Shown piece by piece: positions 29,771-40,676 of a DNA stretch of 64,000 nucleotides; position 1 is the stretch's first letter; every line of letters starts with the position of its first letter. Position numbers and translations under genes: made by a program. The notes under the pieces are model-generated. The model made no database searches, was not told where the DNA came from, and was given only the letters and a program-made list of their open reading frames with translations. The DNA lies in contig NZ_CP035913.1 in the NCBI RefSeq assembly GCF_004209755.1, positions 3,472,001 to 3,536,000 of the forward strand. Direction: 5' to 3'. This DNA is from Pseudoduganella lutea (GTDB lineage: Bacteria > Pseudomonadota > Gammaproteobacteria > Burkholderiales > Burkholderiaceae_D).

Positions 29771-30091
29771 TTACGCCAGCACCCACCCCACTGCGCCCAG
29801 CAGCGCCACGGCCGGCGCCGTCCACCGCACTGGCTGCGGCGCATAGGTCATCTGCAATCCGATGGCCAGCGCAGCGAAGGTCAGGAACCCCAGCCAGGCC
29901 AGGATGCCGACGGACGTGCCCCACGCCGCGATCGCCGGCACCAGGGCGACGGCCAGCAGCGCCCAGCCGCCGAGCCGCAGCGCCATCGCGGGAAATGCCT
30001 TGCCGTACACCTGCTCCTGGTGCCGCGCCATCGACAGCGACACGGCGGCCATTGCCGCATAGCTGAGTGCGAGTACGATCAGCGCTTTCAT
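29771..30091 (-). CDS. DUF3325 family membrane protein
   Basis: A 106-residue protein with three to four hydrophobic helices (about 2-20, 38-58, 60-82 and 90-106), matching the DUF3325 family that follows PepSY proteins in siderophore uptake operons. Its ATG overlaps the PepSY stop (ATGA). The role is unknown; co-occurrence suggests a part in handling ferri-siderophores at the inner membrane. Confidence 0.75.
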   Translation of the reverse strand: MKALIVLALSYAAMAAVSLSMARHQEQVYGKAFPAMALRLGGWALLAVALVPAIAAWGTSVGILAWLGFLTFAALAIGLQMTYAPQPVRWTAPAVALLGAVGWVLA

Positions 30092-31755
30092 GGCGTCACC
30101 TCCTTCAACGGGGCCGGTACGACCTGCGCAACCGGCCGGTCCTTGCGGACCAGGTGCCGGGCGATCCAGCCGAACAGCGCGGCGATCGCCAGCATCGCGA
30201 AATCGAAGCCCACGATGCCGGCCTGGCCGAGCGGAATGCTGGTGAACAGGCCATGCCCGCCTGTGACCGGATTGACGATCGGCAGCAGCACGAACAGCAC
30301 GACGATCGCGATGCATTGCTCTTTCCACGCCGACCTTGCCGGCCGCAGCGCCGCATGCACGAGCGCAGCCAGCCATGCGAGGAAGAAGCCGTTGATTTCC
30401 CACGCGGCCCGTTCCGCCATCTCCACCGGCAGCAGGCGGTTGAGCCAGAAGTAGGCGCCGGTCGCCAGCGCCAGGCCGGTGATGACGCCGATGTTCGTGA
30501 CTTCCACTACGCGGTGGCCGAACGGCGTGCGGCCCAGTTTCCTGCGCTCCGGCGCCCGCTTGACGACCCACAGCACGAGGCCCGTGGCCACCATCGCGGT
30601 ACCGACCACGCCGGACAGGAACAGCAGCCAGCGCACGGCGGGTCCGGCGAAGCGGCCCATGTGGGCACTGGCGAACACGTTGCCGACCGCGCTTGCGGCC
30701 GATGGCGTCGGCAGCGGCGGGCGTTCCTTGATCTTGCCGGTGGCGGCGTCGAAGACGAGCCGTTCGGAGGCGCCGCGCGTCGTCAGGCTGTCGCTGCCAT
30801 GCGCGCGCAGCTCCACCGTCGCACCCGGCTTGTTGGGGCGGTTGACCGTGATGCGGCCCACTGCATGCTCCGGCCACGCGTTGCGTGCCTGCGCCATCAT
30901 CGGGCCGATGGCCGCCGCCAGGTCGACAGGCGCGGCATCGGCGGCACCGCCGCGCGACCGGCCACCGCGGCCTTCACGCCCCTCCTTGCCCTCGCCCTCG
31001 CGCTGCTGCTGCGCACCCGCCACCATCCCGCGCCGCTCCATGTTGTAGGCTTGCCGGTCGCCGTCATAGGCGATTTCCGCGCCCCAGGGCATCAGCATCG
31101 CCATGAGCAGCAGCAGGCCGGAGAAGGTGATCATGATGTGGAACGGCAGCGCCAGCACGGCCGTCGCATTGTGCGCGTCCAGCCACGAGCGCTGGCCCTT
31201 CTTCGGCCGGAACGTGAAGAAATCGGTAAAGATCTTCTTGTGCGTGATGACGCCGCTGATGATCGCCACGAACATGAACATGGTGGCGATGCCCACGATC
31301 CAGCGGCCCGTCGCGCGGTCCATGGCGTGCAGCTCGAAGTGGAAGCGGTAGAGGAAATTGCCGCCGCGTGTTTCACGCGCCTCGATCTTTTCGCCGGTGG
31401 CGGCATCGAGCTCGGCGCGCTTCGTGCCGGCGCGGCCGGCCGCGGCATTCCTGTCGCGCCAGCTGGCCGACACGGTGGTCTGCCGCTCGTTCGGCATCTC
31501 CAGTGTCCACGTATTCGCGGCCGGCGCCAGCTTCTGCATGCCCGCGAGCGCCACCGCCGCCGTCTGCGCGGCATCCGCGCCGGGCACGGAGGCGTGCAGC
31601 TCCGGCTTCATCCACAGGTTCACTTCGTCGAGGAAGTAGCTGAGCGTGCCCGTGAAGAACACCGCGTACAGCAGCCAGCCCAGCACGATGCCGGTCCATG
31701 TGTGCAGCCACGACATCGACTGGCGGATGCCTTCCGGTTTGCCGTCGGGCCTCAT
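30088..31755 (-). CDS. PepSY-associated transmembrane protein (putative siderophore-iron reductase)
   Basis: A 555-residue inner-membrane protein of the PepSY-TM family. The start is taken at MRPDGKPEGIRQSMSW because the conserved first helix (SWLHTWTGIVLGWLLYAVFF, about 14-33) follows; the longer open frame upstream overlaps DUF3649 and is not coding. Further helices sit around residues 180-200, 225-250, 385-405 and 440-545, with a periplasmic PepSY domain between. Conserved His residues in helices fit the idea that the family moves electrons to ferri-siderophores; this is a hypothesis for the family. Coupled by ATGA overlaps to both neighbours. Confidence 0.85.
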   Translation of the reverse strand: MRPDGKPEGIRQSMSWLHTWTGIVLGWLLYAVFFTGTLSYFLDEVNLWMKPELHASVPGADAAQTAAVALAGMQKLAPAANTWTLEMPNERQTTVSASWRDRNAAAGRAGTKRAELDAATGEKIEARETRGGNFLYRFHFELHAMDRATGRWIVGIATMFMFVAIISGVITHKKIFTDFFTFRPKKGQRSWLDAHNATAVLALPFHIMITFSGLLLLMAMLMPWGAEIAYDGDRQAYNMERRGMVAGAQQQREGEGKEGREGRGGRSRGGAADAAPVDLAAAIGPMMAQARNAWPEHAVGRITVNRPNKPGATVELRAHGSDSLTTRGASERLVFDAATGKIKERPPLPTPSAASAVGNVFASAHMGRFAGPAVRWLLFLSGVVGTAMVATGLVLWVVKRAPERRKLGRTPFGHRVVEVTNIGVITGLALATGAYFWLNRLLPVEMAERAAWEINGFFLAWLAALVHAALRPARSAWKEQCIAIVVLFVLLPIVNPVTGGHGLFTSIPLGQAGIVGFDFAMLAIAALFGWIARHLVRKDRPVAQVVPAPLKEVTP

Positions 31756-32069
31756 GCCGCACCCCCTGCGCCGGCCCGCGCCAGCCACGTCAATGCCGCC
31801 AGCAACGCCGTGGACAACACGATGCCGAGCCACGCACGGCGCGTGCTCGCCACCGCGAATACCCAGAGGGCGGCGCACAGGTGCACCACGAACGACGACA
31901 TGGTGGCGGTGGTGACGGCGTCCACGCGGGACATGCCGGTCTGTTGCAGCCACAGGCTCATGGACGCGGCCCAGGCGGCCGCCAGCGCATAGCCGCCGAA
32001 GATGGCCGCCACGCTGCGCGACGCGACCCGCCACCGGTAGGAGGCGGGCAGGGGAGTGTTCTTGCTCAC
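31752..32069 (-). CDS. DUF3649 family membrane protein
   Basis: A 105-residue protein with three hydrophobic helices (about 18-38, 55-76 and 82-98), matching the DUF3649 family that sits between TonB-dependent siderophore receptors and PepSY proteins. The start follows the receptor stop by 37 bases and its end overlaps the PepSY start. Function unknown; iron-uptake accessory by context. Confidence 0.75.
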   Translation of the reverse strand: MSKNTPLPASYRWRVASRSVAAIFGGYALAAAWAASMSLWLQQTGMSRVDAVTTATMSSFVVHLCAALWVFAVASTRRAWLGIVLSTALLAALTWLARAGAGGAA

Positions 32070-32106: not shown

Positions 32107-34323
32107 TCAGAACGACGAAGTCAGGCTCACGAACAGCGAGCGGCCCGCTTCGTTGTACGAGGCTGCGCCGGACGTGCCATTGGTGCTTTCGCGGAACAGG
32201 CGCTCGTCGAACAGGTTGTTGATGCCGGCGCGCAGGCGCAGGTTCTTCGTGAACGCGTAACCGGCGCTCACGCCCCACACGCTGTACGGGTCCAGCGTGT
32301 TGAGGGCGTCGCCGGTGGCCGCGGCGCCTTGCGTGGTCAGCTTGCGCGGTTCCTGCTTGCCGTACCAGGTGCCGGTGAACAGCAGCGACACCTTGTCGTT
32401 GACCTGCCAGTCGAGCGATGTATTCAATGTGAACTCGGGGATCACCGACAGCGGCTCGCCCGTGGTCTTGTTCTCGTTCTCAATCATGTACGTGAGGTTG
32501 TTGATGAACTTCACGCCGCGGCCGAACGGGATCGTCACGTTGCCCTCGACACCCTGCACGACGGCCTTCGGCGCGTTCTCCCACTGGAACAGGCGGCCAT
32601 TGGCCGACGTGTTGCCGAGCAGGCTGTCCATGCCGCCCACGATCTTGTTGCGGTAATCGTTGTGGAAATAAGTCACGCTGGCACTGTGGCCGGCGTCGCT
32701 CCAGCCGATGCCGATTTCCTTGTTGACCGATGTTTCCGCTTCGAGGTTGTCGTTGCCGCGCAGGTAGCAGCCGCCGCCCAAATTCGGGTTGTTGACCGGG
32801 CAGCCGTTGCCGCGCGTGTAGTACAGGTAGTTCGGATTCGACTGGTACAGGTTGGGCGCCTTGAACGCCCGCGCGATGCCGCCCTTGATCGTGATGGTCG
32901 GCGTCAGCGAGTACGAGGCGTTCAGGCTGGGGCTCCAGTTGGTGCCGAACTGGCTGTGCTTGTCGAAGCGCAGGCCGGGCGTCAGCATCAGGTCATTGGT
33001 CACGCCGATATTGTCTTCCACGTACACGGCATAGGTTTCGGCATCGGCCTTGCCGTCGCGGTTCGTCGCGGCGAGGCCGGGGATCGCGGTGGCCGTCTGT
33101 GTCATCGAATACGGGTCGTCCAGCTTTTCCTGGCGCACGTCGAAGCCCACCGTCATCATCTGCGACAGGCCGAACAGCTTGCCCGGGATGTTCAGTTCAC
33201 CGTTCAGGATAGTGTTTTCCAGTTCGGACGTGGACCACGACGTGGCATTTGAAATACTGCCTTCCGGGCCGCCGGCCAGGCCTTCGTTCAGGCGCGTGTT
33301 ATCGGTATTTTCCCACTGCACCGACAGCTTCGACGTGCCGAAATCCCACTTGCCGCGGTGCGTCAGCGCGGCGGTACGGCGGATCATCACGTTCGTCTCG
33401 GCGCCGGCATTGGCCAGTTCGCCCAGCAGCGGCGTGCCCGTGGCATTGACCGCGCGGTCGCCCGCGTAGATATTGCCCTGGCGGGAAAAGCCCGATTCCA
33501 GTTCCAGCACCTGCCCCGGCGCCAGGTCCCAGCGCAGCAGGCCGCCCACGTCGCGGTTGCGCACGCCTTCGCGGCCGGCCGGCGGGATCGCGCCATCGGC
33601 CGTGTTTTCCGGCGTGGCATTGATCGACAGATCGTCCGCATCGGTCTTGTTCACGTTACCGAACACCCGGAACGAGAACTTGCCGGCCAGCGGACCGGAA
33701 AGGTTGAAGCCCAGGCGCTTCGTCGAGCTTTCCTCGCCGTGTTCCGGGGCCAGCGCGTACGCGGTGACGGAGCCGGACAGCTTGTCGCCCGGCGCCTTCG
33801 TGATGATGTTGACCACGCCGCCGGCGGCGCCCGAACCGTAGCGCGCGGCGGCCGGGCCGCGCAGCACTTCGATGCGCTCCACCAGTTCGGCCGGCACCCA
33901 GTTCGTGTCGCCGCGCGAATTGCGCTCGCCGCTGCGACCCATCCGCACCGAGTTGCGCGACGTGACCGGCTTGCCGTCGACGAGGATCAGCGTGTTTTCC
34001 GGGCCCATGCCGCGCAGGTCGATCTGGCGGTTGTTGCCGTACTGGCCCGTCGAGCTGTTGCCGGTGAGATTCACCCCGGGCATCGTGCGGATGATCTCGG
34101 AAAGGTCGTTGGCCGGCGGGCGCGCTTCGATATCGGCGGCGGTGATCGTCGATACGCCTGGCGCCTGCTTCAGTTCCTCCTCGGCGGTGGCGGTCACCTG
34201 CACTTCGGCCAGTTGCTGTTCGGGAGCAACCTGGGCCGGGGCCGTGCTGGTCGCCCACGCGCATGTTAAAAACGCCACGCGGAGAGCAGTGGCGAGCGGG
34301 GTGGGTTGCAGAGTGTGAGTCAT
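32107..34323 (-). CDS. TonB-dependent catecholate siderophore receptor (FepA/PfeA type)
   Basis: A 738-residue outer-membrane receptor with a signal peptide (cleaved near residue 28, STAPA), a TonB-box region (EVQVTA), a plug domain (about 50-175) and a 22-strand barrel ending in the C-terminal Phe (LFVSLTSSF). The plug segment with GQYGNNRQIDLRGMGPENT and NSVRMGRSGERNSRGDTNWVP is characteristic of the FepA/BfeA/PfeA enterobactin branch. A Fur box lies 88 bases upstream, and the operon continues with DUF3649, PepSY and DUF3325. The likely ligand is an enterobactin-type catecholate. Confidence 0.9.
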   Translation of the reverse strand: MTHTLQPTPLATALRVAFLTCAWATSTAPAQVAPEQQLAEVQVTATAEEELKQAPGVSTITAADIEARPPANDLSEIIRTMPGVNLTGNSSTGQYGNNRQIDLRGMGPENTLILVDGKPVTSRNSVRMGRSGERNSRGDTNWVPAELVERIEVLRGPAAARYGSGAAGGVVNIITKAPGDKLSGSVTAYALAPEHGEESSTKRLGFNLSGPLAGKFSFRVFGNVNKTDADDLSINATPENTADGAIPPAGREGVRNRDVGGLLRWDLAPGQVLELESGFSRQGNIYAGDRAVNATGTPLLGELANAGAETNVMIRRTAALTHRGKWDFGTSKLSVQWENTDNTRLNEGLAGGPEGSISNATSWSTSELENTILNGELNIPGKLFGLSQMMTVGFDVRQEKLDDPYSMTQTATAIPGLAATNRDGKADAETYAVYVEDNIGVTNDLMLTPGLRFDKHSQFGTNWSPSLNASYSLTPTITIKGGIARAFKAPNLYQSNPNYLYYTRGNGCPVNNPNLGGGCYLRGNDNLEAETSVNKEIGIGWSDAGHSASVTYFHNDYRNKIVGGMDSLLGNTSANGRLFQWENAPKAVVQGVEGNVTIPFGRGVKFINNLTYMIENENKTTGEPLSVIPEFTLNTSLDWQVNDKVSLLFTGTWYGKQEPRKLTTQGAAATGDALNTLDPYSVWGVSAGYAFTKNLRLRAGINNLFDERLFRESTNGTSGAASYNEAGRSLFVSLTSSF

Positions 34324-34406
34324 TTCCTGGTCCTGTGTTGTAACGGTTCCGCGATCGCTGCCTGCCTCCGAACATGGCTATCGGCAACATCCCGATCGCG
34401 CGCAAC

Positions 34407-34425
34407 TGAGAATGATACTCATTTA
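34407..34425 (-). promoter_or_regulatory. Fur box before the siderophore receptor
   Basis: TGAGAATGATACTCATTTA; the core AATGATACTCATT matches 12 of 13 positions of the Fur core. It is placed between the receptor and the divergent sugar-acid operon. Confidence 0.8.
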
Positions 34426-34559
34426 GTTCCTTAAAAGTTTGTCAAAGTGTGGCAGCCGGCAGGGCAGCGACTGCGGTGCAGTCCGTGCCGTGGCATGGGA
34501 AACGTGCCTGGAACGGCTCGGCGGCATTTGGCAATCCCTCGAATGCGGCCGATTTTTTG

Positions 34560-34588
34560 TTGACTTCGCAAAAAGGCGTGATTACACT
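34560..34588 (+). promoter_or_regulatory. Sigma-70 promoter of the GPH transporter operon
   Basis: TTGACT (34560-34565) and TACACT (34583-34588) with a 17-base spacer. The operator TGTTAGCGCTATCA starts ten bases downstream, over the expected transcription start. The rest of the 600-base gap 34324-34924 holds the Fur box, a second operator copy, a leader ORF and two hairpins. Confidence 0.75.
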
Positions 34589-34597
34589 ATTTGCATC

Positions 34598-34611
34598 TGT
34601 TAGCGCTATCA
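34598..34611. promoter_or_regulatory. LacI/GntR-type operator O1
   Basis: TGTTAGCGCTATCA, with the central TAGCGCTA palindrome typical of LacI-family sites. The identical sequence, inverted, stands before gntK at 39240-39253. Both begin nine bases after a -10 element. Confidence 0.85.
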
Positions 34612-34665
34612 GAGCCAGGTTGAAAATCACGGGAAACCCGGTCGCGCTGACGAGGACAAGATAAC

Positions 34666-34679
34666 TGTTAGCGCTGCCA
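34666..34679. promoter_or_regulatory. LacI/GntR-type operator O2
   Basis: TGTTAGCGCTGCCA, a second copy 68 bases downstream of O1 (two mismatches in the right half). A pair at this spacing could allow looping or cooperative repression. Confidence 0.65.
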
Positions 34680-34726
34680 GCATGTCCGCGAAGACGGACG
34701 ACGGCACGATGCAGGAGGAGACGACA

Positions 34727-34807
34727 ATGCTGCACACCAAGCCACCCGCCACCACCGCTGCGGCACGCATGCCGCGCCTGCTGGTGCATCACGCCGGGGC
34801 AGCATGA
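34727..34807 (+). CDS. 26-aa leader ORF with a strong ribosome site
   Basis: ATG 34727 is preceded by GCAGGAGGAG at ideal distance and opens 26 codons (begins MLHTKPPATTAAARM, ends HHAGAA). It lies downstream of both operators and upstream of two terminator-like hairpins and the transporter gene. It may be a leader peptide coupled to attenuation, or the 5' remnant of a lost gene that once headed this operon. Codon composition alone cannot decide. Confidence 0.4.
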   Translation: MLHTKPPATTAAARMPRLLVHHAGAA

Positions 34808-34827
34808 CGGAAGGTCCGATGGGCGGA

Positions 34828-34858
34828 CCGGGTTACACTTTCCCGGTCTGTTTTTTCT
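34828..34858 (+). terminator. First terminator-like hairpin in the transporter leader
   Basis: GACCGGG / CCCGGTC with a loop of about 9 bases, then TGTTTTTT. It lies between the leader ORF and the GPH gene. Confidence 0.55.
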
Positions 34859-34860
34859 GT

Positions 34861-34897
34861 GCGGGTGGACAAATGGTCCGCCCGCGCAGTTTTTTTT
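34861..34897 (+). terminator. Second terminator-like hairpin in the transporter leader
   Basis: GCGGGTGGAC / GTCCGCCCGC (one G-T pair) around AAATG, followed by GCAG and eight Ts. It ends about 28 bases before the transporter start, so read-through must be allowed when the operon is expressed. Confidence 0.6.
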
Positions 34898-34924
34898 CGT
34901 GCAGGCCTTCCGAGTGAGAACCCC

Positions 34925-36337
34925 TTGAACAATCACGTCAACAAGCGCCTGCCCTGGCGCGAAAAGATCAGCTACGGCATCGCCGACATGGGGTTCAATT
35001 TCTATTGGACCAATATCGCCACGTTCCTGCTGTTTTTCTATACCGAGGTCTTCGGCATCTCGGCGGCGGCCGCGGCGTCGATGATGTTCTCGATCAAGCT
35101 GATCAACGCCTTCACCGATCCGATGATCGGTGCCCTGGCCGACCGCACCACGACCCGCTTCGGCAAGTTCCGGCCTTACCTGGTGTGGATGGCCGTGCCG
35201 CTGGGCTGTGCCGCCGTGCTCACCTATACCACGCCCGACCTGGAAGGCAACGGCCGCCTGTATTGGGCCTACGGAACGTATCTGCTGATGATGGTCTGCT
35301 ACACGGCGATCAACATTCCGTACAACGCGCTGTCCGGCGTCATGTCGGCCGATCCGCAGGAGCGCTCCACCATCAACGGCCTGCGCTTCATCTGCGCGTT
35401 CGGCGGCAGCATGCTGGTCACGGCCGCTACCCCGTGGATGGTGGAGGCGTTCGGCAAGGGTAACGACGAGCGGGGCTGGCAGCTGACGATGGCCGCCTGG
35501 GCGGTGGCAGCGTGCGTGATGTTCCTGATCGCGTTCTTCAACACGCGCGAACGCATCGCGCCGCCGCCGCAGCAAAAGACCAACGTGATGCAGGATGTGC
35601 GCGACCTGTCCCGCAACGGACCCTGGGTGGTGCTGTTCTTCCTGGCGCTGATCATCATGGTCACGATCACGCTGCGCACCACCACCGCCGCCTATTACTT
35701 CAAGTATGTCGTGGGCCAGCCGGAGCAGATGGGCACGTTCGTTTCCGTCTACATGTTTGCCGCCGCTGTAGGTGCCGCCGCGTCGCCGCTGATGACACGC
35801 TTCATCGACAAGAAGAAGCTGATGATCATCCTGATGAGCACCACGGCCGTGCTGTCCGCCGCCTACTTCTTCATCCCGCCGGACCAGGTGTGGCTGATGT
35901 TCGTGCTGCAGGCATGCATGGGCCTCGTGCTGGGGCCGAAATCGCCGCTGGCCTTCTCGATGTATGCCGACACGGCCGACTACAACGAATGGCGCACCGG
36001 CCGCCGGGCCACGGCGATGACGTTCGCCGCCGCCACGTTCTCGCAAAAGCTGGGCACGGCGCTGGCCGTGGCCGTGATCGGCGCGCTGTTCACCACGCTG
36101 GGCTATGTGCCGAACGCCACGCAAAGCCCCGATTCCACGGCCGGCATCGTGTGGCTGATGTCGCTGATTCCCGCCGCCTTCGCGCTGCTGGCCGTGGGCG
36201 TAATGTGCTGCTACCACCTCGACGCGGCCACGCTGCGCACCATCCAGCTTGATCTCGCCGCGCGCAAGCCGGCATCCGATAGTCCAGATTCCGGAGAAGA
36301 ACCCGATGCATTCCCCACTCCTTCGCCCGTCCGCTGA
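34925..36337 (+). CDS. GPH-family sugar (acid) transporter
   Basis: A 470-residue, 12-helix carrier of the glycoside-pentoside-hexuronide cation symporter family. The first helix block is [15 protein letters not shown] (about 11-25), and the family loop motif reads [21 protein letters not shown] (about 60-80). TTG 34925 is taken as the start because an earlier GTG lies inside the second leader hairpin. It overlaps the GH94 gene by 32 bases, so the two are translated together. Cellobionate or another beta-glucosyl sugar acid is the inferred substrate from the operon partners. Confidence 0.82.
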
Positions 36338-38675
36338 CGGCCAGCGCTACGAACTGCTGTCGCCGACGGCGATGCCGCGCGCGGCGGGCTTCCTGTGGAA
36401 CCGCAAGATGATGATCCAGGTGAACTGCCGCGGCTATGCCGTGGCCCAGTTCATGCAGCCGGAACCGGCCAAGTACTCGTATGCGCCGAACCTGGAAGCG
36501 AAAACGTTCATGCAGCCGGAGCAGGGCTATTACGCGCACCACCCGGGCCGCTTCTTCTACGTGAAGGACGAGGAAACGGGCGAGCTGTTTTCCGCGCCCC
36601 ACGAACCGGTGCGGGCCGCGCCGGACCGTTTCGAATTCTCGGCCGGGAAGAGCGACATGGCGTGGACGGTCGACGCCCTCGGCATCCGCATCGAACTCGC
36701 CATGGGCCTGCCGGTCGACGACGTGGCCGAACTGTGGTCGCTGAAGGTCACGAACCTGTCCGGCCGGCCGCGCCGGCTGTCCGTCTACCCGTACTTCACG
36801 ATCGGCTACATGAGCTGGATGAACCAGTCGGCCGAGTATCGCGCCGACCTGGGCGGCGTGGTGGCGTCGTGCGTCACGCCCTACCAGAAGGTGGCCGACT
36901 ACTTCAAGCAGAAGGACTTCAAGGACCGCACGTGCTTCCTGTGCGAGCGGGCGCCCGATGCGTGGGAAGTGGCGCAGGAAGCCTTCGAAGGGGAGGGCGG
37001 GCTGCATGCGCCGTCCGCCCTGCAAGGTGAACTGCTGGCCGGCGGCGATGCGCGCTACGAAACGCCGGTGGCCGCCGTGCAGTACCGGCTGGCGCTGGCG
37101 GCCGATGCCAGCGAGGAATACCGTTTCCTGTTCGGTCCCGCGTTCGACGATGCGGAAATCGCCGCGTTGCGCGAGCGCTACCTGTCCGCTGCCGGCTTCG
37201 CCAGGGCGCGCGGCGAGTATGCGGCCTACATCGCCGCCGGCGCCGGCTGCGTGACGGTATCGACGCCGGACCCGGAGTTCGACAACTTCGTCAACCACTG
37301 GCTGCCGCGCCAGGTGTATTACCACGGCGGTTCGAACCGCCTGACGACCGATCCGCAGACGCGCAACTACCTGCAGGACAACATGGGCATGAGCTTCGTG
37401 CATCCGCCTGTTGCGCGCGGCGCGTTCGTGCATGCGCTGTCGCAGCAGGAGCCCAGCGGCGCGATGCCGGACGGGATCCTGCTTGTCGAAGGCGCGGAAC
37501 TGAAATACATCAACCAGGTGCCGCACACCGACCACTGCGTGTGGCTGCCCGTGTGCCTGAAGGCTTACCTGGACGAGACGGCCGACTGGGCGCTGCTCGA
37601 CGAGGTGGTGACCGACCGCGAAGGGCATGGCCAGACGGTGGCGCAGCGCATTGGCCGCGCGATGGACTGGCTGCTGGCCGAGCGCGACGAACGCGGCCTG
37701 TCATACATCGCCCAGGGCGACTGGTGCGACCCGATGAACATGGTCGGCTACAAGGGCAAGGGCGTGTCCGGCTGGCTGACCGTGGCCGCCGCCTATGCGC
37801 TGAACCTTTGGGCGGACATGTGCGCGCAGCACAAGGACGAGGAAGGCGCCCGGCACTTCCGCGCGGGCGCCCAGGCGATGAACGATGCGGCCAACGAGCA
37901 CCTGTGGGATGGCCGCTGGTTCGCCCGCGGCATCACGGACGATGGCGTGGTGTTCGGCGTGGCCGACGACAAGGAGGGGCGCATCTGGCTCAATCCGCAG
38001 GCATGGTCGATGCTGTCCGGTGCGGCCAGCGCGGCGCAGCGCGCATCGATGGTCGAGGAAGTGGCGCAGCAGCTGCACACGCCTTATGGCGTGCAGATGT
38101 TCGCACCGCCCTTCTCGAAGATGCGCGACGACGTGGGCCGCGTCACGCAGAAGCACCCCGGCTCGGCCGAGAACGGCGCCGTCTACAACCACGCGGCCGC
38201 GTTCTACATCTACAGCCTGTACGACGGCGCCGATGGCGAACGGGCATGGGACCTGATGCGCAAGATGATTCCCGGCCCGGACGAAACCGACTACCTGCGG
38301 CGCGGCCAGCTGCCCGTGTTCATCCCGAACTACTATCGGGGTGCATGGCGCGAATATCCGCGCACGGCGGGCCGTTCGAGCCACCTGTTCAACACGGGCA
38401 CCGTGTCGTGGATCTACCGCTGCGTGATCGAGGGCCTGTGCGGCCTGGTGGGCGATGCGGAAGGATTGCGCATCGCGCCCCAGCTGCCAGCCGCGTGGAA
38501 CGGCATGCGGGCCGTGCGCACGTTCCGTGGCGCGACGTTCGAGGTATCGATCCAGCGTGGCGACGTGCGCGGCGTGCAGGTGCGCTGCGACGGCACGCTG
38601 CTGCCAGCGGCGCGCGTTACCGGCATCGAAGCAGGCCGCACCTATCGGCTGGAAGTGACCGTACCCGCGGCGTGA
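36306..38675 (+). CDS. GH94 phosphorylase, probable cellobionic acid phosphorylase
   Basis: A 789-residue glycoside phosphorylase of family GH94, the length of known cellobionic acid phosphorylases. The N-terminal beta-sandwich (about 1-270) begins [19 protein letters not shown], and the alpha/alpha-barrel follows (about 310-690). The general-acid Asp is expected in [12 protein letters not shown] (about 473-484). ATG 36306 with GGAGAAG upstream is chosen over an earlier in-frame start. The enzyme would split cellobionate with phosphate into alpha-glucose-1-phosphate and gluconate. The neighbouring gluconokinase and gluconate-type repressor support this over cellobiose or chitobiose phosphorylase, but specificity is not proven. 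Confidence 0.78.
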
Positions 38676-38680
38676 CGGTG

Positions 38681-38706
38681 CCTGCGGCGTGACCTCACGC
38701 CGCAGG
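38681..38706. terminator. Strong hairpin between the GH94 gene and gntK
   Basis: Perfect 12-base arms (CCTGCGGCGTGA with TCACGCCGCAGG) around a 2-base loop, at the meeting point of two convergent genes. No T-run follows on either strand, so it may act as an RNA 3' barrier rather than a classic terminator. Confidence 0.5.
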
Positions 38707-38723
38707 GAATACGCGCCGCCGCC

Positions 38724-39230
38724 TCAGGCGGCGTGCGTGATGCGGTCCACCAGTTGCGTCACGCCCTCGGCGATGTCGAGCACGATGCCCGCCTCGTCCG
38801 GCTGCAGCGGTTCCAGCGCGGCGAACTGGCTGTCCAGCAGCGACAGTGGCATGTAGTGGCCAACGCGCGCGGACATGCGGGCCTCGATCAGTTCACGGGT
38901 GCCGGCCAGGTGCGCGAAACGCAAGCCGGGCACGCCTTCGCGCAGCAGGTCGCGATAGCGGCGCTTCAGCGCCGAGCATGCCACCACGATGCCTTCGCCG
39001 CGCGCCATCGCATCGCGGATCTCGCCCTGCAGGCTGGCCAGCCAGTGCAGGCGGTCGCCATCCGTCAGCGGCACGCCGGCGCTCATCTTCGCCACGTTTT
39101 CCGGCGAGTGATAGCGGTCGCCTTCCACGTAGCGCACGCCGAGCCGTTCCGCCAGCGCCGCTCCCACCGAACTCTTGCCGCAACCGGCCACACCCATCAC
39201 CACCCAGCGCGGGGCATCCATATTATTCAT
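38724..39230 (-). CDS. gntK: Gluconokinase
   Basis: A 168-residue ATP-dependent gluconokinase giving 6-phosphogluconate. The Walker A motif GVAGCGKSS (about 13-21), YVEGDRYHSPENVAKMSAG (about 34-52), ACSALKRRYRD (about 84-94) and the C-terminal LDIAE are typical of the GntK/IdnK family, as is the length. ATG 39230 (MNNMDAPRW, GAGGG upstream) is the start; the earlier in-frame ATG at 39254 falls in the operator region. Its promoter and operator copy those of the transporter operon. Confidence 0.9.
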   Translation of the reverse strand: MNNMDAPRWVVMGVAGCGKSSVGAALAERLGVRYVEGDRYHSPENVAKMSAGVPLTDGDRLHWLASLQGEIRDAMARGEGIVVACSALKRRYRDLLREGVPGLRFAHLAGTRELIEARMSARVGHYMPLSLLDSQFAALEPLQPDEAGIVLDIAEGVTQLVDRITHAA

Positions 39231-39239
39231 CTCGCCCTC

Positions 39240-39253
39240 TGATAGCGCTAACA
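39240..39253. promoter_or_regulatory. LacI/GntR-type operator before gntK
   Basis: TGATAGCGCTAACA, the exact reverse complement of O1 at 34598. It begins nine bases after the gntK -10 element. Confidence 0.85.
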
Positions 39254-39262
39254 TAATTTTTC

Positions 39263-39291
39263 ATTGTAATGCACGTGTGAGCGTAGTTCAA
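39263..39291 (-). promoter_or_regulatory. Sigma-70 promoter of gntK
   Basis: On the minus strand TTGAAC (39291-39286) and TACAAT (39268-39263) with 17 bases between. The spacing to the operator equals that in the transporter promoter. Confidence 0.75.
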
Positions 39292-39339
39292 GTTCTCCTG
39301 CATGAGACCGGATGGCGTCACAGTAATGGCTGGCCGGCG

Positions 39340-39408
39340 AACACCGGTGTCTGACCGCTGCGGCGGACCGACCATTTTCCAGGGAAAATGGTGTCAGACA
39401 CCGGTTCT
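39340..39408. repeat. Palindromic repeat of the GTGTCAGACAC family
   Basis: Outer inverted arms ACCGGTGTCTGAC (near 39343) and GTCAGACACCGGT (near 39393) enclose a perfect inner stem ACCATTTTCC (39371-39380) / GGAAAATGGT (39383-39392). It sits between the repressor gene end and the gntK promoter. Confidence 0.75.
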
Positions 39409-39459
39409 TCACCGCTAACGGCGAGTTCATGCCGCGTCATGCTGCCGGCGTTCGCGCCA

Positions 39460-40488
39460 CTATGCGCTTTCGCGGGCCATCAGCGTAAAGCCCAGGTCGA
39501 GGTGGGCATGGGCCGGGCGTTCGCCGCGGATCGTGGCGCGCAGCATCGTGGCGGCCTCGAAGCCGATCTTGTAGCGGGGCGTGCCGACCGTCGTCAATGC
39601 CGGCTTCATCCACGCCGAAGCCGGCAGGTCGTTGAAGCCGCAGATGGCCAGCTGCTCGGGCACCGAGATGCCGCGCCGCTGGCACTGGTAGATGGCGCCG
39701 TGCGCCAGATCGTCGTTGCAGCAGAAGATCGCGTCGCAATCGGGCACCTGGGCAAGCATGCGGCCCAGCAGTTCGGCGCCCAGCGCGATCGTCGAGGGAT
39801 CCGGCACCATGATCTCGAGACGCGTATCGGCCAGGCCGGCATCGGCCATGGCCTTGCGGTAGCCTTCGGCACGGCGCAGTGTGCGTTCGTCGAGCTGGGC
39901 ACCGATGAAGCCAATGCGCTTCTTGCCCTTGCCGATCAGGTAGCGCGTCATCGCCTGGCCGGCCTCCACCTGGGAAAAGCCCACGCACAGCAGGTCCGGA
40001 TCGGACGACAGGTCCATCATCGACACCACGGGCACGCGCGACGTCTCGAGCATCTGCTGCACGCGAGGACTGTGTGTCAGGCCGGACAGCAGGATACCGT
40101 CCGGGTTCGACTGCATGTACACGTTCAGCAGCTTTTCCTCCTCGGCGTCGGAGTAGCGGGTATTGCCGATCAGGAGCTGGTAATTGTCGTCGTCGAGTGC
40201 GTCCTGGATCCCCTGCAGGACGGCGGTGAACACGGTATTGGACAGCGAGGGCACGAGCACCACGATGACGTTCGATTGCGCCGAGGCGAGGGCGCGGGCG
40301 GCACGGTTCGGCACGTAGCCGAGTTCCTGCACCGCCTGCTCGACGCGCTGGCGCAGCAGCGACGACACGAGGTCGGGCTGGTTGATGGCGCGCGAAGCGG
40401 TCATGGGCGCCACGCCGGCACGGGCCGCCACGTCGCTCAGCGTGACGCGGCCGCTGGCGCGGCTGCGGGAAGAGGGGGATTTGCTCAT
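39460..40488 (-). CDS. LacI-family repressor, gluconate (GntR) type
   Basis: A 342-residue repressor. The helix-turn-helix (about 14-60) begins VTLSDVAARAGVAPMTASRAIN and ends with the hinge YVPNRAARALASAQS; the effector domain (about 65-340) starts VIVVLVPSLSNTVFTAVLQG. These segments match the LacI-type gluconate repressor GntR more than ribose or sucrose repressors. ATG 40488 is the start closest to the helix-turn-helix; a 52-codon extension is not supported. It probably binds the TGTTAGCGCTATCA sites before the transporter and gntK, with gluconate or a derivative as inducer. Confidence 0.88.
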   Translation of the reverse strand: MSKSPSSRSRASGRVTLSDVAARAGVAPMTASRAINQPDLVSSLLRQRVEQAVQELGYVPNRAARALASAQSNVIVVLVPSLSNTVFTAVLQGIQDALDDDNYQLLIGNTRYSDAEEEKLLNVYMQSNPDGILLSGLTHSPRVQQMLETSRVPVVSMMDLSSDPDLLCVGFSQVEAGQAMTRYLIGKGKKRIGFIGAQLDERTLRRAEGYRKAMADAGLADTRLEIMVPDPSTIALGAELLGRMLAQVPDCDAIFCCNDDLAHGAIYQCQRRGISVPEQLAICGFNDLPASAWMKPALTTVGTPRYKIGFEAATMLRATIRGERPAHAHLDLGFTLMARESA

Positions 40489-40676
40489 ATCTGGAGGGGT
40501 TTTTGGGGACCCCGGGAATCCTACTTTGTTTATGTGTTGTTGGGCTGGATTTATCCATAGTTCGGGGATCGATGTCAATCGAAGCTGCGCAGTCGATACC
40601 TGGGTGGCATGACCGAAAAGCCCCGGCCGCGGGTCGCCGCCCATGCTAAGCTTGCCGCTTTGGCATCGGAGACCGC

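Follow-up and report, generated by a model that had tools for sequence, protein, structure and literature searches.

What carries cellobionate into a bacterium that encodes a phosphorylase for it, and what switches such genes on? Cellobionate arises when cellulose is cleaved oxidatively, and the question is raised by a gene cluster in a 64,000-nucleotide stretch of Pseudoduganella lutea DNA (contig NZ_CP035913.1, positions 3,472,001–3,536,000; hereafter the window, in whose numbering feature coordinates are given). The genome is closed (7,504,849 bp) and belongs to the Pseudoduganella/Massilia group. The original prediction had read a carrier, a GH94 phosphorylase, a gluconokinase and a GntR-type repressor as a cellobionic acid pathway, and our analysis supports this through the GH94 score, the profile matches of GntR and GntK and the unique exact operators. 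In our judgement the locus is quite probably a cellobionate catabolic regulon whose leader holds real terminators. As a catabolic regulon the locus is well supported and of a kind already known, and the novelty lies in a conserved double-terminator leader before the carrier gene. A second operator, a short open reading frame (ORF) and two hairpins are features of this leader that the earlier prediction did not contain.

A predicted cellobionate gene set and its operators

The phosphorylase gene (36306–38675, forward strand) encodes a 789-residue protein from an ATG at 36306, which agrees with the anticipated length of about 790 residues, and it does overlap the transporter gene, by 32 bp (transporter stop at 36335–36337). 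The GH94 catalytic and supersandwich domains are both present (PF17167, 198.6 bits; PF06165, 91.4 bits). When compared among solved structures, residues 10–788 align with 4zle_A at 1273 bits; the next GH94 structures are cyclic β-1,2-glucan synthases (189 bits), followed by chitobiose phosphorylases (173 and 163 bits) and cellobiose phosphorylases (135 bits or less). Judged by these scores, 1273 against at most 189 bits, the protein does not cluster with the cellobiose or chitobiose enzymes. The table of a review gives 4ZLE as the cellobionic acid phosphorylase Sde_0906 of Saccharophagus degradans (PMC8950772). Gln347 of this enzyme, SdCBAP, is reported to correspond to Arg in VpChBP and CgCBP (PMC5309861), and the Gln is kept in the window protein as Q351. 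On this homology the P. lutea enzyme is predicted to prefer cellobionate, and it would share its reaction with Sde_0906 and also with Xanthomonas campestris XCC4077, which is named beside Sde_0906 in the same review table. Compared with the S. degradans and X. campestris enzymes, the one described here has a predicted function, and it sits in a host that lacks an AA10 lytic polysaccharide monooxygenase (LPMO) and is probably a scavenger. Separately, we see that the phosphorylase match carries one in-frame stop (TAG or TGA) in each of four genomes (G065, G071, G073 and G078).

The gene ahead of the phosphorylase (34926–36337, forward strand) encodes a GPH-family (MFS_2) carrier that is probably a cellobionate importer (TIGR00792, 381 bits against a cut-off of 231; PF13347 match). 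Its start is uncertain, being either TTG at 34926 or, in a longer form, GTG at 34859. On the reverse strand lie a gluconokinase of the GntK/IdnK type (38724–39230; TIGR01313, 191 bits against a cut-off of 114) and the LacI-family repressor GntR (39460–40491), which has the LacI helix-turn-helix and sugar-binding domains (PF00356, PF13377) and matches the equivalog NF052440, whose short name points to P. aeruginosa, at 541 bits against a cut-off of 400. For the gluconokinase we prefer the ATG at 39230, because an ORF from 39254 would cross its own operator. No cellobiose-use enzyme was found adjacent when the ORF list of 30–45 kb was inspected by eye, as had been stated before. These gene identities come directly from the computations, as do the operator sites that follow.

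A sigma-70-type promoter, TTGACT-17-TACACT (34560–34588, forward strand), precedes the transporter/phosphorylase operon, and a promoter TTGAAC-17-TACAAT (39263–39291, reverse strand) precedes gntK; both were found by a consensus scan, which gave two promoter-like sites against a shuffle mean of 0.9. Nine bases after each -10 element, by coordinates, stands an exact copy of the predicted GntR operator TGTTAGCGCTATCA, as operator 1 at 34598–34611 (forward) and inverted before gntK at 39240–39253 (reverse), so that the described identity, spacers and spacing are all borne out. A search of the 7,504,849-bp genome for the exact 14-mer gave two copies, both at this cluster, against approximately 0.014 expected genome-wide from the base composition of the window; it is thus not scattered at unrelated genes. 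Allowing up to three mismatches, we counted 10 matches in the window over both strands (a palindromic site contributing two), compared with a mean of 2.58 in shuffled sequence, and none of 100 shuffles reached 10.

A weaker copy with two mismatches, the predicted operator 2 (TGTTAGCGCTGCCA; 34666–34679, forward strand), starts 68 bp after the start of operator 1. It is kept in all six genomes of the subclade formed by P. lutea and five relatives, and the spacing stays constant at 66–68 bp despite diverged spacers (41–76% identical to that of the window). DNA looping or cooperative binding at the two operators is possible.

The predicted GntR target promoters of the window contain an AGCGCT-core palindrome, as do Pseudomonas GntR footprints, in which GAGACAGCGCTATCTT is reported before the gluconokinase gene (PMC12195362). 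Gluconate and 6-phosphogluconate are described as effectors of Pseudomonas GntR (PMC5902321), and by analogy one of them would be the effector here. The likeness to the GntR/gluconate regulon of P. aeruginosa and P. plecoglossicida extends to the GntR equivalog and to AGCGCT-core operators at gluconate genes, whereas the window adds such operators before a cellobionate carrier and phosphorylase, together with the extra operator at 66–68 bp. Cellobionate would then enter through the GPH carrier and be phosphorolysed by the GH94 enzyme to glucose-1-phosphate and gluconate, and GntK would turn the gluconate into 6-phosphogluconate. GntR would occupy the operators at the start of both transcripts until released by gluconate or 6-phosphogluconate, so the pathway would be induced by its own product.

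To place the locus among its relatives we used 74 genomes of the genus, in which phosphorylase carriers were counted at E 1e-150 or better (46 of 74), and compared the cluster region in 22 of the 45 other carriers. An operator-like site is present at the cluster in all 22, the carrier and GntR are each found within the stretch in 21, and a gluconokinase homologue in 16, once approximately 9.5 kb off. In 18 of the 22 loci gntR is found upstream with the same orientation, and gntK and gntR lie downstream on the opposite strand, as in the window, in three; the latter order also appears in some Massilia loci (L138, L174 and L175). A wider set comprised the best 80 of 520 matching stretches in named genomes, some of which end at contig ends. 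Here the carrier adjoins the phosphorylase in 76 loci, a GntR homologue is present in 61 (40 at 60% identity or above, 21 weaker) and a GntK homologue lies within the locus in 51. The carrier–phosphorylase pair was seen in Duganella, Massilia, Rugamonas, Roseateles/Pelomonas, Cellvibrio and Vibrio, with no GntR or GntK homologue within the three Vibrio loci, and the closest named relatives among the matches listed are Pseudoduganella umbonata and P. flava. This occurrence across genera and loci indicates that the pathway and its GntR link are of a widespread known kind.

The same loci bear on the substrate. Since the cellobionate preference is predicted from homology, the enzyme might act on another disaccharide acid or on cellobiose, with the gluconokinase as an incidental neighbour. 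However, SdCBAP is the top-scoring match and aligns along almost all of the protein, and GntR or GntK homologues lie near 67 of the 80 phosphorylase genes, although several of the GntR matches are only 40–50% identical; we hold such a different substrate to be highly improbable.

Across the whole genome, 54 strand matches to the operator with up to two mismatches were found, against 20 for a reversed control pattern. Near-matches in the genome (C1) lie at 123103/123240, 2078921, 4354899, 5651283/5655778, 586263, 2661411 and 1178428. The surroundings of nine such loci include a TonB receptor, a GH31 gene, a GH1/MFS pair, a subtilase and three PEP-CTERM proteins, and one site falls within an ORF. 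Some of the near-matches at sugar genes are probably operators of paralogous LacI regulators; the remainder, including the PEP-CTERM cases, would be chance occurrences or stay unexplained.

Two conserved hairpins between promoter and carrier

Read in order, the leader contains the promoter, operator 1, operator 2, an ORF of 26 codons, the 12-mer GTCCGATGGGCG, a hairpin followed by U6, a 14-bp hairpin followed by U8, and the carrier start. The first intrinsic-terminator-like element, hairpin 1 with U6 (34824–34856, forward strand), was recognised by folding, and the second, hairpin 2 with U8 (34857–34897, forward strand), by a terminator scan, which gives hairpin 2 only because the loop of hairpin 1 has nine bases. 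The scan found three terminator-like sites in all, not above the shuffle mean of 3.9, and the whole-leader fold is moderately better than shuffles (z -2.16, with 3 of 100 shuffles equally good). The case for the hairpins rests on their conservation.

A covariance model of the double hairpin, applied to the 74 genomes of the genus, gave matches in 11 with E-values no worse than 5.1e-13. In all 11 the element lies directly before the carrier, behind a TTGACT..TA(C/A)ACT promoter and a GntR-type operator. It was found in none of the 28 genus genomes that lack the phosphorylase, and the 11 genomes are exactly those whose phosphorylase is nearest to that of the window (80–100% identical). Because the searches used strict filters and scored 57 candidates per genome in the genus and 14 in the family, the element is present in at least 11 genomes and its absence from others is only loosely constrained. 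The model used (R2) had one helix off by one column and the family was found by sequence; the pair statistics given below are independent of it. Among the five subclade relatives the element is 85–95% identical to that of the window, compared with 35–76% for its flanks and 35–69% for the stretch between operator 2 and the element. The 12-mer (34814–34825, forward strand) is identical in all 11 genomes.

Pairing was assessed in 10 of the 11 sequences, L109 being omitted as an extra base broke the alignment. We see that 97.8% of alignment cells are paired and that two-sided changes occur in 7 of 23 pairs, four of nine in hairpin 1 and three of 14 in hairpin 2. In L110 and L111 the upper part of hairpin 1 is out of alignment by a single column, which lowers the pair count. 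On four of five measures none of 500 shuffles scored as high, while on the fifth, the number of pair types, 262 of 500 did. When the hairpin partners were slid out of register, pairing fell to 31–47%. The conservation and covariation of the hairpins are thus established by computation, and termination by them is what these structures would be expected to produce.

Conserved terminator hairpins with U-runs therefore stand between a promoter and the first gene, which is the structural arrangement of an attenuator. The consensus scan found no other promoter-like site in the leader stretch and the upstream FepA-like gene points the opposite way; as the sole promoter seen is upstream, polymerase must cross both hairpins before it reaches the carrier gene. 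In P. lutea and 10 close relatives, tandem intrinsic terminators would thereby form a second gate on the carrier/phosphorylase transcript, with GntR derepression coming first and the transcription attenuator next.

Several other candidates and matches were considered. A GGTCC/GGACC hairpin on the 5' side of hairpin 1 was rejected, with 96.0% of cells pairing against 96.2% in shuffles and no covariation. The leader element was also rejected as a repeat family, as it has a single copy in the P. lutea genome and other matches there are at E 0.7 or worse. Weak model matches comprise a second one in G073 (1.7e-6) and one in G025 (2.0e-4) within the genus, and three in the family (5.6e-5 to 9.1e-4); no carrier or other window genes adjoin any of them. 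An Rfam search of 34300–35100 gave no match at gathering score. The best was a terminator-like match to the Burkholderia small RNA ncS037 (RF02868), which at 23.6 bits against a gathering score of 112 (E 0.14) does not make the leader a member of that family.

Possible routes through the leader

If the hairpins terminate transcription, something must let polymerase pass. The likeliest route is that a ribosome translating the leader ORF uORF1, and possibly also one starting at the ATG of the 12-mer, blocks the formation of hairpin 1 and subsequently that of hairpin 2; we put this ribosome step forward tentatively, with somewhat more doubt than confidence. uORF1 (34727–34807, forward strand; MLHTKPPATTAAARMPRLLVHHAGAA) has a strong Shine-Dalgarno sequence of the AGGAGGAG type and 26 codons in the window. 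By computation, an ORF of this type is present in all six subclade genomes, with 11–26 amino acids and a stop 5–11 nt before the invariant 12-mer. A ribosome terminating there would sit near the foot of hairpin 1, and we take uORF1 as a suggestive clue to read-through. The 12-mer holds an ATG in all 11 genomes, from which a possible uORF2 runs in the window (34819–34917, forward strand).

Ribosome-coupled attenuation is known from pyrBI. Both pyrBI and mgtCBR resemble the window in that one or more leader ORFs precede or overlap terminator structures in front of the first structural gene, but the window has other sequence and other genes, its two terminator-like hairpins are back to back, and leader translation and termination are predictions here. 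Tandem attenuators with leader ORFs are reported for Salmonella mgtCBR (PMC3641672), and a paper on cooperation between ribosome and polymerase reports almost complete repression in E. coli of an intrinsic terminator that follows a gene closely (PMC4824070).

The invariance of the 12-mer also fits a different agent, namely a protein or small-RNA antiterminator that binds it and carries polymerase past both terminators. The twelve bases, which adjoin and overlap the foot of hairpin 1, do not vary among the 11 genomes, whereas substitutions in other parts of the element are compensated; but no antiterminator gene was apparent among the neighbours examined, with no systematic search made for one, and we regard this factor as unlikely.

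Four of the 11 leaders have only 26–28 nt between the operator start and the 12-mer, which would make the terminated transcript short: an invariant stretch, partly outside the hairpins, and then a terminator. The terminated leader might accordingly be the product itself, a GntR-controlled small RNA derived from the 5' untranslated region, with the 12-mer as seed and the terminator as tail, and the carrier would be expressed by leaky read-through. The match to ncS037 points the same way, but lies far under the gathering score, and two terminators would cut carrier expression heavily; a small RNA of this kind seems to us rather improbable.

An RNA-only switch was examined in which the 5' arm of hairpin 1 and the 3' arm of hairpin 2 pair as an antiterminator, possibly stabilised by a ligand as in a riboswitch. 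This alternative helix pairs in 95.6% of cells and exceeds all 500 shuffles on three of five measures, and duplexes of own partners average -19.4 kcal/mol against -16.6 kcal/mol for swapped partners. However, its columns are already constrained by both hairpins, and on the other two measures it is not above shuffles (204 and 498 of 500). The forced helix is weaker than the best fold by 7–24 kcal/mol in all 11 sequences and must await transcription of hairpin 2, and the four short leaders could not accommodate an aptamer of appreciable size. In these folding models such a switch acting alone is energetically unlikely, and overall we give it very little credence.

Returning to the reading of a GntR regulon with a leader attenuator passed by ribosomes, several observations weigh against it. 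No ATG or ORF led by a Shine-Dalgarno sequence was found in the leaders of the other five of the 11 genomes, and the Shine-Dalgarno sequence before the 12-mer ATG looks poor by eye in L110 and L111. With the carrier start assigned by rule, frames opened by this ATG meet it in 8 of 11 genomes (9 of 11 with an alternative ATG in L103), as against 10 of 22 control frames; as 8 of 11 is not above the controls, we claim neither coupling of uORF2 to the carrier start nor that it is coding. Because the 10 aligned sequences divide mainly into two groups, the cells counted exceed the number of independent changes. In 35 of the 46 phosphorylase-bearing genus genomes the search did not find the leader element, and the pathway therefore does not need it. 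Finally, with GntR at 61 and GntK at 51 of the 80 wider loci, the regulatory link is common and not universal. We suggest, with rather more doubt than confidence, that this may be an undescribed leader RNA, seen so far in a single genus, with two back-to-back terminators under a repressor-controlled promoter, passed by means of leader-ORF translation or a factor on the 12-mer, and whose product may act as a small RNA.

Other leaders, neighbours and the source of cellobionate

A different conserved structure lies between gntK and the carrier in 17 of the 74 genus genomes, so placed in all 17 (L114–L130). It consists of GCTCTC, a hairpin, GTTC, a terminator-like GGCAG..CTGCC hairpin and a T-run, and in several loci a site like AGTTACCGCTATCA precedes it, as judged by eye. 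L062, L065, L070 and L076 have this second element with a longer first hairpin, outside the genus-level matches of its model. No Rfam match at gathering level was obtained for it in the seven relatives' loci searched. In seven Massilia-type loci (L140, L142, L143, L146, L148, L149 and L173), where the double-hairpin model finds no match, short ORFs were seen by eye whose TGA seemingly overlaps the carrier ATG (ATGACGG). Divergent from the operon in the window are genes on the reverse strand for a FepA-family TonB siderophore receptor (32107–34323) and a large ORF (30088–32034), and both also adjoin the cluster in L055 and L056.

The search for an LPMO returned no AA10 enzyme in the P. lutea genome; it did not extend to cellobiose dehydrogenase or other oxidases. 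In the genus, three of the 74 genomes encode an AA10 LPMO and all three are without the phosphorylase, so that none of the 46 phosphorylase-bearing genomes has one. With LPMO genes in just three genomes, the pattern falls short of demonstrating mutual exclusion. As phosphorylase genomes are without AA10 LPMO, the host likely scavenges cellobionate released when other organisms oxidise cellulose.

In the open-licence literature, which leaves most subscription journals outside, little was found on bacterial regulation of cellobionate use: no paper there joins cellobionate, GntR and the phosphorylase, and among the 10 listed of 534 matches to a broader search, judged by titles and the first lines of abstracts, none concerns such a regulon. 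The present comparison ties the pathway to an adjoining GntR in 21 of 22 relatives and proposes the leader as a concrete second layer of control. If this is true, the unrelated-looking second element found at the corresponding place in 17 further genomes of the genus would point to more than one origin of a post-initiation gate ahead of the carrier. It also suggests that these bacteria may harvest cellobionate made by others.

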